Positions 1,715 through 40,410 of a stretch of DNA of 40,410 nucleotides are shown one piece after another. The notes below the pieces were generated by a model that did no database searches, was not told the DNA's origin, and was given only the letters and a program-made list of their open reading frames with translations. Every line of letters starts with the position of its first letter. The first letter of the stretch is position 1. The stretch is taken from NCBI GenBank assembly GCA_024695625.1, contig JAILHV010000157.1, forward strand, positions 1-40,410, read 5' to 3'. Source of the stretch: Treponema sp. (GTDB taxonomy: Bacteria; Spirochaetota; Spirochaetia; Treponematales; Treponemataceae). Both the position numbers and the translations under genes were made by a program.

Positions 1715-2085
1715 TCTGAATTTGGACGGAACCTTTATCCGCTCCACCATTCATTCCTTGGCTAAAATCGGCACTTGCCATTTTTTACCTGCAAACAAGC
1801 AGCACCATGGAGGGTGCGTCACATCTTAGCGGAAAAATTTCGCAGGTCTTCGGCAGAAGACCTGTAAGTAAAAAATGGCAAGGAGGCCATTTTTTACGGG
1901 CTTTCCGGGGTTCCGCCCTCCGGCTCCATTGCTCCGCAACGCGCTACGCGCGCCCCTCCAATCCCGCGTAGATCGCCAGAAAAAATCCTTCCGTGGATTT
2001 TTTCTGGATTGCAGATCGCTACGCAATTCTGCACGCTGCTAACCCGCCCTCCATGGCTCGACATTCCTTGGCAAGAAAGAAATAA
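1715..2085. repeat. Composite hairpin repeat (family C) with ANGGAN hexaloops, two abutting copies
   Basis: This 371-base stretch holds no credible gene. The left copy opens with a TTTGGACGG...CCTTGGC segment. It then has hairpin M1 (GCACC-ATGGAG-GGTGC, 1802-1817), hairpin M2 (CAGGTCTTC-GGCA-GAAGACCTG, 1843-1864) and hairpin M3 (12-bp perfect stem 1868-1879/1886-1897, loop AAGGAG), then the CTTTCCGGGGTTCCG...CCCCTCCAATCCCG module. The M3 arm GCCATTTTTTAC also occurs at 1777-1788. The right copy is inverted: stem 1976-1988/1995-2007 reads with loop ACGGAA on the minus strand, followed by GCC-ATGGAG-GGC (2057-2046, minus). Confidence 0.8.
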
Positions 2086-3855: not shown

Positions 3856-3949
3856 GTCATTAATAAGTGTTAATCTAAATTCTCAAGTTTAGTATATAAT
3901 CGTTATGCAAAAGTATCCGGCATCATTCTTTACCTTCTTTACAGAACTT

Positions 3950-4186
3950 GCAGAAGGTAAGTGCAGCAGGCAGGGACTACAATGTAGTAAAACAACGTGT
4001 GGAAGCACTGGAATGGAGCCGGGGTTCGTGCCGAAAATCCATTTTGCGCGGTACGACCGCAGGGAGTTAGACACCTATTACCGCGCACCATGGATTTTCG
4101 GCACGGTTCCCGGCGGGAATGGAAGTGCTTTCCACATTTAGATTAATCCTTGCTAAGCTTCATTTAGATTTGCACTTGCCTTCTAC
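3950..4186. repeat. Family A inverted-repeat element, copy 1 (237 bp)
   Basis: The ends are inverted repeats: GCAGAAGGTAAGTGC (3950-3964) against GCACTTGCCTTCTAC (4172-4186). Inside, GTGTGGAAGCACTGGAATGG and CCGGGGTTCGTGCC pair with GGCACGGTTCCCGG and the GGAATGGAAGTGCTTTCCAC region. The central stem is CCGAAAATCCAT / ATGGATTTTCGG. An inverted copy lies at 18879-19113. A 78-codon open frame crosses the element but is a by-product of the repeat. No gene is supported in the 419 bases between the flanking genes. Confidence 0.8.
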
Positions 4187-5922: not shown

Positions 5923-5952
5923 TTTTCTTTATTTTTCTGGATCTGGCAGTTC

Positions 5953-6805: not shown

Positions 6806-7196
6806 AATAAGTATTAAGCCATGGATGGCGGGCCTTGGACTGCGCTCAGCAATCATGGTAGGTACAGACCCTGAATCAAGTTCAGGGTGACTGTTGTTTG
6901 TTATTTGATACACTAGGGAACGTAATTCTTACTTGCCAAATAATAACAAGCGCATGGATGCGCGGCTTAGCAACATGCAGAAGCCTTAGGCTTCTGCAAT
7001 ACCCAAGAAAATCCACGGAGGGATTTTCTTGGGTCATACGCCCGATTGGAAGGGTGGCGCAGCCAGACCGCCTTTAGGCGGGCCGGAGCGGTAGCGGAGC
7101 CCTGGAAAGCGGGTGGCGCAGAGGCATGTTCGGTCGAATTAGCCAAGGAAGAAAATGGTAGAGCAATAAAAAATTCGTCCAGAAGAAAAATAGATT
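6806..7196 (+). repeat. Composite family C repeat with ANGGAN hairpins
   Basis: This region between two genes contains an inverted repeat D (6869-6887). Hairpin GCGC-ATGGAT-GCGC lies at 6950-6963, and a 10-bp hairpin TGCAGAAGCC/GGCTTCTGCA at 6976-6998. A perfect 14-bp stem ACCCAAGAAAATCC / GGATTTTCTTGGGT (7001-7034) closes on ACGGAG. Then follows the inverted CCCGATTGGAAGGG...CCCTGGAAAGCGGG module and a reversed GCCAAGGAAG...TTCGTCCAGAA end. A shorter GCC-ATGGAT-GGC lies at 6818-6829. No gene is supported from 6747 to 7320. Confidence 0.75.
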
Positions 7197-11814: not shown

Positions 11815-11925
11815 GCGTTCACAGATAAAGCCTAGCCCCGATTGGAAGGGCGGCGTAGCCGGCCACCGCAACGAAGTGAGGAGGCTGGAGCGAAAGCGGA
11901 ACCCTGGAAAGCGGGATTAAATGCT
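11815..11925 (-). repeat. Composite family C repeat, inverted copy
   Basis: CCCCGATTGGAAGGGCGGCG, a variable centre (GGCCACCGCAACGAAGTGAGG), then GCGGAACCCTGGAAAGCGGG. This is the reverse orientation of the module at 11570-11655. Together with that copy it fills the 769-base gap between the regulator and rnfC, where no gene is supported. Confidence 0.75.
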
Positions 11926-18878: not shown

Positions 18879-19113
18879 GTAGAAGGTAAGTGCAATCCTA
18901 ATTGAGACTTAACAAAAATTAATCCAAATGTGGAAGCACTTCCATTCCCGGCAGGAACCGTGTCAAAAAAGCATGGTGTGCGGTATTTGGTATCTGACTC
19001 CCTTCGGTCGCACCGCACAAATGCTTTTTTGCCACGAACCCTGCCTCCATTACAGTGCTTCCGCACATTGTTTTACTATATTACATTCCCTATCTTAAGC
19101 ACTTACCTTCTGC
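18879..19113. repeat. Family A inverted-repeat element, copy 2 (235 bp, inverted)
   Basis: Ends GTAGAAGGTAAGTGC (18879-18893) and GCACTTACCTTCTGC (19099-19113). Read on the minus strand it aligns along its length with the copy at 3950-4186: GTAAAACAATGTGCGGAAGC, AGGGTTCGTGGC, GCGACCGAAGGGAGTCAGA, GGTTCCTGCCGGGAATGG. The central stem differs: it is AAAAAAGCAT / ATGCTTTTTT here instead of GAAAATCCAT / ATGGATTTTC, so both arms have changed together. Confidence 0.8.
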
Positions 19114-19118
19114 AACAA

Positions 19119-36077: not shown

Positions 36078-36341
36078 TTGAATTTGGACAGCACTTTTCC
36101 TTCCGCCATCCATTCCTTGACTAAGTCGAGATCTTACCATTTTTTACTGCGCTTAACAGGAAGCGCCATGGACGGAACTCATATCTTTGCAGAAAGACAG
36201 GCGTGTTTTCGCAAGAAACACGATAGTAAAAAATGGCAAGGAGGCCATTTTTTACGGGCTTTCCGTACTTCGCGGACTAGCCGCCGCTCATCCCGCTTGC
36301 GCGGGACTAAAGGTACTCCAATCCCGAGTAGTATGCATTAA
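36078..36341 (+). repeat. Composite family C repeat with ANGGAN hairpin
   Basis: It opens with TTTGGACAGCACTTTTCC and CCGCCATCCATTCCTTG. M1 is CC-ATGGAC-GG (36166-36175, weak). M2 is CGTGTTT...AAACACG (36202-36222) with a GCAA-type loop. M3 is a perfect 12-bp stem 36226-36237/36244-36255 closing on AAGGAG, the same 30 bases as at 1868-1897. The arm occurs a third time at 36136-36147 (11 of 12). It ends in GGGCTTTCCGTAC...CTCCAATCCCG. No gene lies in 35995-36345. Confidence 0.8.
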
Positions 36342-37015: not shown

Positions 37016-37105
37016 CGGGTTCTTAGGGCGGAAGCCCTAAGCCGTGCCGGGAAAGGGAGGGGTTTAAGGGGACAAGGGGCCGCCCTTGAAAATAAACTTC
37101 ATTCT
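37016..37105 (+). repeat. Repeat family E, copy 2
   Basis: CTTAGGGCGGAAGCCCTAAG then CCGTGCCGGGAAAGGGAGG and GGTTTAAGGGG. Compared with the copies at 2139 and 40333, the hairpin arms changed from GGGG/CCCC to GGGC/GCCC on both sides. Confidence 0.75.
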
Positions 37106-39779: not shown

Positions 39780-40080
39780 GCAGCCAGACCATAGCATTTT
39801 ATCCCGTATTGCAAACAAACAGCGGCATGGAGGCCGCGTCATTTGTTAGCAACAAGACTGGGTGAGTTTTCGCAAGAAAACTCACGGGATAAAATGCCAT
39901 GGATGGTATTTTATCCCGCTTTCCAGGGTTCCGTCTTGGTTGTTGAACAAATAGCGCCAAGGAGGGCGCGTTATTTTGTTATTTTAACAGCAAGTGAGTT
40001 TTCCAACGGGAAAACTCATGGTTAAAAAATTGCACGGATGCAATTTTTTAACACGCGCCCTTCCAATCGGGGCTAAGCTT
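39780..40080 (+). repeat. Composite family C repeat, double unit with four ANGGAN hairpins
   Basis: First unit: M1 GCGGC-ATGGAG-GCCGC (39822-39837); M2 GTGAGTTTTC-GCAA-GAAAACTCAC (39862-39885); M3, a 13-bp stem with one G-T pair (39886-39898/39905-39917), loop ATGGAT. The M3 arm GCATTTTATCCC also occurs at 39794-39805. The CCCGCTTTCCAGGG module follows. Second unit: GCGCC-AAGGAG-GGCGC (39954-39969); TGAGTTTTCC-AACG-GGAAAACTCA (39995-40018); a perfect 13-bp stem 40021-40033/40040-40052 with loop ACGGAT; then CGCCCTTCCAATCGGGG. Confidence 0.85.
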
Positions 40081-40332: not shown

Positions 40333-40410
40333 TTGGGGTTCTTAGGGGTGAAACCCCTAAGCCGTGCCGGGAAAGGGAGGGGTTTAAGGGGAGGGAAAAC
40401 CCTCGCTTCG
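40333..40410 (+). repeat. Repeat family E, copy 3 (runs off the window)
   Basis: TTGGGGTTCTTAGGGGTGAA, CCCCTAAGCCGTGCCGGG, AAAGGGAGGGGTTTAAGGGG and AACCCTCGCTTCG. It matches 2139-2213 almost base for base after the hairpin. Confidence 0.8.

Follow-up and report, generated by a model that had tools for sequence, protein, structure and literature searches.

The window, a stretch of 40,410 nucleotides from a Treponema sp. (contig JAILHV010000157.1, positions 1 to 40,410), carries on its plus strand three copies of a composite element whose parts follow one common order: arm 1, hairpin M1, hairpin M2, arm 2, a loop and arm 3. Element 1 is preceded by a hairpin-forming leader (TGGACGG...CCATTCA, 1722-1776, boundaries approximate) that is conserved upstream of the copies termed type I below, and consists of arm 1, the third arm (GCCATTTTTTAC, 1777-1788), M1 (GCACC-AUGGAG-GGUGC, 1802-1817), M2 (1843-1864), arm 2 (GTAAAAAATGGC, 1868-1879), the AAGGAG loop of hairpin HP3 (1880-1885) and arm 3 (GCCATTTTTTAC again, 1886-1897). 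Arm 2 is a perfect complement of arms 1 and 3, and sequence and loop statistics place the M1 loop (ANGGAN) and the HP3 loop within the consensus CANGGANG. Element 2 has arm 1 (ACCATTTTTTAC, one mismatch) at 36136-36147, arm 2 at 36226-36237 and, perfectly complementary to it, arm 3 at 36244-36255. Element 3 uses a different arm sequence: its arm 1 (GCATTTTATCCC, 39794-39805) matches the complement GGGATAAAATGCC, which is arm 2 (39886-39898), M1 (GCGGC-AUGGAG-GCCGC) and M2 lie between them at 39822-39837 and 39863-39884, and arm 3 (GGTATTTTATCCC, 39905-39917) forms one G.T pair with arm 2 in HP3. An earlier note on this DNA had described the plan of 1777-1897 and its recurrence at 36136-36255 and 39794-39917; the recurrence was confirmed, and the arm letters and coordinates proved exact for all three elements.

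Type I copies are followed by the R module, a GC-rich stretch closed by a helix of two anchors. The module next to element 1 (1898-1966, minus strand, closing helix GGGCTTTCCGGGG...CCCCTCCAATCCC) is Flavo-1-like, as judged from anchor covariation and sub-threshold Flavo-1 matches. GC-rich R modules with a covarying closing helix occur at 1898-1966, 36256-36335 and 11822-11922, and their GGA-rich strand resembles Flavo-1 below threshold. Relatives without a third arm also lie in the window. The type II relative (39953-40056, plus strand) sits between the R anchors 39915-39928 and 40056-40072, and a type III relative occupies 1969-2094 on the minus strand (M1, M2 and HP3 CCAGAAAAAATCC-ACGGAA-GGATTTTTTCTGG; 31.7 bits). 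Type III recurs at 6919-7039 (plus strand); its HP3 class, AAAAATCC-ANGGAN-GGATTTTT, as at 1969-2094, accounts for 31 of the 96 HP3 sites tallied in the genome, with no third arm seen in this class.

Other repeats share the window. The repeat CCCTAAGCCGTGCCGGGAAAGGGAGGGGTTTAAGGGGA stands at 2150-2213, 37027-37090 and 40347-40410, the last copy ending exactly at the contig end, and has weak similarity to Clostridiales-2 (28.1 bits, cut-off 58.6). A short inverted-repeat family, GTCACCCTGAACTTGTTTCAGGGTCTGTAC, is found at 5946, 6861, 17241, 21015, 21292, 22248 and 23313, and the regions 3948-4130 and 18934-19115, separated by about 15 kb, share two long inverted repeat segments (97 and 88 nt, 81-84%).

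A three-arm subfamily of TD-type repeats

The elements are a new and conserved three-arm variant of the TD-type structured repeats. The type II relative at 39953-40056 passes the Rfam cut-off for TD-2 RNA (49.0 bits against 48.7), whereas the type I elements 1-3 of the window stay below it: element 3 contains a match of 30.6 bits (39821-39921), and neither element 1 nor element 2 is listed at E<=1. A covariance model was derived from an alignment of 13 three-arm copies, with the third arm kept unpaired so as not to favour that arm; it found at least 118 matches in the own genome at E<=0.1 (150 of 2,518 candidates scored), and a pattern for HP3 alone matched 109 sites genome-wide against 3 for the reversed control pattern. 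Matches were present in 29 of the 59 genomes searched (own included); these belong to 3 of 20 genera, but almost all of them to the genus of the own genome; the named genomes recovered by an exact-pattern scan are the rumen Treponema MAGs RGIG10193, RGIG6799, RGIG8307, UBA6988 and UBA3662. Because the window flanks reach 96-97% identity to two of these five MAGs, the host is a rumen-type Treponema.

The subfamilies differ in what comes next, (C)GCTTTCC(A/G)GGGTTCC in type I and mostly CCCTTCCAATC in type II, and in the third arm, which is restricted to type I. An upstream arm that fits the complement of the copy's own arm 2 at 9 or more of 12 positions, a level reached by about 2% of shuffled upstream sequences, is present in 52 of the 58 type I copies of the own genome, whereas the 28 type II copies, including that at 39953-40056, are at chance level as a group. 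Related species repeat this division (64 of 73 type I copies, 1 of 12 others), and the 45 distant copies tested gave no signal. The earlier note had held that copies lacking the third arm would count against its proposal; on this check the result is divided, since type I copies keep the arm and covary in it, and the arm is missing from type II copies and distant relatives.

Type II copies are F modules (the unit from arm 1 to arm 3 in type I) nested in the R helix, with both anchors recognizable in 20 of 28; the median R-anchor insert is 127 nt with a nested type II copy versus 51 nt. The anchors covary, AGGG/CCCT (26) and GGGG/CCCC (19) being joined by single cases of ACAC/GTGT, GCCC/GGGC, GGTG/CACC and GTAC/GTAC. 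Since type I uses arm1:arm2 and type II the R anchors, this anatomy suggests that an outer helix of one kind or another usually closes the F core.

Hexaloops with the CsrA consensus

HP3 carries CANGGANG in 78 of 84 own, 84 of 85 rumen and 35 of 45 distant copies, and M1 in 50 of 81, 64 of 85 and 31 of 38, respectively, as scored with an unanchored hairpin picker; in both hairpins C, A, GGA and G hardly change and both N positions vary freely. Strong hexaloops in the own-genome DNA examined were ANGGAN in 29 of 126 cases, with another 29 being its complement, and the Rfam TD-2 consensus itself contains two such loops (AuGGAu and AcGgAU). An M1-loop insert, GGGTTCACGCAGC...GCTTCCAGCG, present in L132, L212, L089, L110, L135 and L139, destroys ANGGAN there.

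CANGGANG is the published CsrA/RsmE consensus (PMC4353343), and the SELEX sequence RUACARGGAUGU and the ANGGAN hexaloop have been published as well (PMC7652899). Most SELEX ligands had four or fewer contiguous pairs (PMC7652899), and the HP3 stems, at 12-16 bp, are longer, which counts against the CsrA reading. The own genome has a csrA gene (G000:C32, 6401-6556, minus strand), and alignment shows its product to be similar to solved CsrA/RsmE chains, including the RsmE chain 2jpp; FliW was not detected in this assembly, which is about 88% complete. Of 59 relatives, 51 have CsrA, irrespective of whether they have elements, so that the co-occurrence gives no extra support. The link to CsrA, mentioned only in passing in the earlier note, is strengthened by the loops with their variable N positions and by the csrA gene, and the elements are probably CsrA-binding RNAs with a refolding second site, as judged from loop sequence and predicted folding.

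Probable RNA strand, genomic placement and mobility

Internal non-Watson-Crick pairs of M1, M2 and HP3, read on the GGA strand, comprise 17 G.U and 4 A.C (p = 0.007), which points to an RNA made from that strand. The bias is confined to internal mismatches, a fixed-register count for HP3 alone showing none (14 versus 11), and the distant copies are too few to strengthen the case for the asymmetry. The mapped copies are intergenic and have no orientation bias towards flanking genes (upstream same/opposite 39/39, downstream 35/47), which argues against both a 5'-UTR switch and a 3' terminator as the general role. A sigma-70-like scan found no promoter on the GGA (plus) strand in either stretch scanned, the second having two minus-strand matches, and no promoter-like site around element 1.

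A dispersed DNA repeat of the REP/BIME or MITE kind, whose hairpins would serve spread or the organization of the chromosome as DNA, either single-stranded or cruciform, with any RNA being incidental, is the alternative that survives best, although we consider it rather unlikely. More than 100 copies, those mapped being intergenic and randomly oriented, would suit such a repeat, as would the modular nesting within R anchors and the behaviour of the copies at orthologous loci, where F modules are absent (L236, L259) or swapped and a type II copy is replaced by a short R insert (L251). Against it, related species retain many of the copies at the same locus, G.U outnumbers A.C on the GGA strand, and the loops retain an exact protein-site consensus with free N positions. 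A REP/RAYT system was rejected, as the only Y1 transposase gene (Y1_Tnp) has no adjoining element, with no R1 match in the surrounding 4 kb (assembly about 88% complete). Integron attC/attI sites were rejected as well: an integrase gene stands beside one copy, but it has no cassette array, and none of 87 segments has the attC-like complementary core pair RYYYAAC / GTTRRRY. The use in recombination that had been offered as an alternative in the earlier note thus found no support. The integrase gene concerned is of the integron type (tyrosine recombinase, TIGR02249, 422 bits; L286, G000:C91, 272-1699), and a TD-like element at 1669-1804 overlaps its apparent start and is conserved in L184.

Covariation of the three arms

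Three-way covariation had been proposed in the earlier note as a check, and it holds across type I copies and across species. Arm 1 was placed by comparing all arm 2 sequences at the best register and by matching the arm 3 of other copies. The match to the own arm 2 averaged 9.67, versus 8.35 +- 0.21 with permuted partners (maximum of 20,000 permutations 9.19, distinct arm 2 only), and for 73 copies in the named related Treponema MAGs it was 9.78 versus 8.48 +- 0.17, giving z of 6.4 and 7.8 for the own genome and the related species, respectively. In each of the 20,000 permutations the own arm 2 exceeded the permuted partners, whether all type I copies were used or one copy per distinct arm 2. 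Pairing of arm 1 was 89% in register and 44-55% when slid by 1-3 nt, and the arm classes GCCATTTTTT, GGCATTTTAT, GCAATTTCTACC, GCAACTTTT and G(T/G)CGTTTTTC were each seen in matching arms. Mutual information was significant at arm positions 2, 3, 8, 9, 10 and 11. Three-way tracking spans positions 1-9, and it is mainly over these that arm 1 follows arm 2 changes in closely related cassettes; from position 10 outwards, in outer HP3, covariation is mainly between arms 2 and 3.

The match could in principle be a by-product of template switching (quasi-palindrome correction) or of whole-cassette inheritance, with a functionless 1:2 helix, a reading that we regard as improbable. The whole F module is often swapped as a cassette at orthologous loci, changing the three arms together; the copies are therefore non-independent, and part of the covariation reflects shared descent. 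In agreement with a by-product, the mismatches between arm 1 and arm 2 are not enriched in G.U (6 G.U, 16 C.A), so that a selected RNA helix at arm1:arm2 is not proven, and between orthologues arm 1 does not evolve more slowly than the linkers (0.10 versus 0.10-0.125). However, arm 1 fits its own arm 2 over about nine positions across many arm classes, and at 19 positions arm 2 complements arm 1 and not arm 3, which simple correction between arms 2 and 3 would not leave behind.

Predicted folding

Ensemble computations on type I copies agree with the earlier note that arm 2 can take part in two mutually exclusive folds, which are near-balanced in energy. With arm 3 blocked, arms 1 and 2 are predicted to pair in 56 of the 58 own copies; with arm 3 free, the minimum free energy fold has 2:3 in 46 and 1:2 in 11, and the mean gap between the two constrained folds is about 3 kcal/mol. 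Full flanks give mean pairing probabilities of 0.35 (1:2) and 0.52 (2:3), and with the leader and R module included 1:2 is favoured in 21 copies and 2:3 in 33. The three copies of the window all favour 2:3, at 0.85-0.91. The predictions with arm 3 blocked and free suggest a path on which 1:2 forms first and is then displaced, an order that may also apply in vivo.

This classical three-strand geometry, with the balanced energies and the A-tract and U-tract of HP3 (A6...U6), would suit a cis-acting attenuator or riboswitch in which 1:2 would serve as antiterminator and HP3 as terminator for a downstream gene, but such a role is most improbable, because downstream genes show no same-strand excess (35 same, 47 opposite), element 1 lies between divergent genes, element 2 is antisense to both neighbours, and HP3 of elements 1 and 3 was not scored as a plus-strand terminator. 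The RNA switch of the earlier note, taken as a cis switch of a neighbouring gene, is accordingly not borne out by the random orientation to flanking genes.

Discussion

The third arm of type I is a real feature that covaries with the other two, and most M1 and HP3 loops in the family carry the CsrA consensus. We tentatively favour the reading that the TD-2-related type I repeat acts as a plus-strand, CsrA-binding and refolding RNA, serving mainly as scattered CsrA sites or decoys; transcription, CsrA binding and a biological effect are what we infer from sequence features and modelled folds. A CsrA dimer would most likely contact the M1 hexaloop with one face and the HP3 hexaloop, likewise CANGGANG, with the other. 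In the nascent transcript, arm 1 would pair first with arm 2, so that M1 and M2 would be enclosed in a cloverleaf and the loop of HP3 would not yet exist; the emerging arm 3 would then compete for arm 2 and in most copies oust arm 1, creating HP3 together with its CsrA loop. CsrA, once bound, would favour the fold with HP3, and the effect of the third arm would therefore be to postpone or modulate the second CsrA site. The loops persist in type II copies and distant relatives, which have no third arm, so that the refolding switch is not needed for the general function of the family. As the copies are intergenic and randomly oriented with no conserved promoter seen, the transcripts would probably come from read-through, and their main role would be that of dispersed CsrA sites or decoys and not of switches of a particular neighbour gene. 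A more far-reaching version, which we regard as doubtful, is that rumen Treponema may possess a genome-wide dispersed CsrA titration system, in which each of more than 100 repeats would present a pair of CsrA consensus loops on one strand, frequently opposite a GGA-rich partner module on the second strand, and the third arm of one subfamily would be a co-transcriptional gate that decides when the second CsrA loop forms.

The CsrA/RsmE consensus in the loops of TD RNAs across Treponema species provides a directly testable candidate partner and extends the proposed CsrA-binding RNAs to a spirochaete. Were more than 100 dispersed copies to be transcribed, CsrA control in these bacteria would hinge on a family of repeats and not on one sRNA gene. 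In addition, the three-arm subfamily is a natural series of dozens of candidate refolding RNAs, with type II copies as matched two-arm controls, that would be useful for testing strand displacement during transcription.

Among known RNAs, the closest is TD-2 (RF03162, clan CL00124), in which two ANGGAN hexaloop hairpins flank a GAGUUUU...AAAACUC hairpin; the elements have the same order, M1 (ANGGAN), M2 and HP3 (ANGGAN), and type I differs in its extra upstream arm, which the TD-2 model lacks. We found no papers on the function of TD-1 or TD-2 in the literature and know of no function assigned to TD RNAs. The sponge RNAs CsrB/CsrC and RsmX/Y/Z share with the elements repeated GGA loops of the CsrA/RsmE consensus. 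They are single-locus sRNA genes with many loops each, whereas the elements have two loops each in more than 100 dispersed copies, with CsrA binding putative from sequence. On the minus strand, the R module shares AGCCCCGATTG...GGAAAGCGGGA with Flavo-1 RNA (RF01705; 29.3 bits, E 0.0003, 451-base search), a Bacteroidetes family (PMC2864571), but it is below the cut-off of 42 and differs in being the partner of a TD-like element. TwoAYGGAY RNA (RF01731, clan CL00106) is known from samples of the human gut and from gamma-Proteobacteria and Clostridiales (PMC2864571) and was predicted to bind CsrA outside Gammaproteobacteria by the same loop-consensus reasoning (PMC4333381). Its external stem aligns with arm1:arm2 of the type I copy L103, the best match at 31.3 bits (below the cut-off of 43), where it encloses an ANGGAN hairpin and a second hairpin; in type I, in contrast to TwoAYGGAY, this second inner hairpin has no GGA loop and a competing arm 3 then follows.
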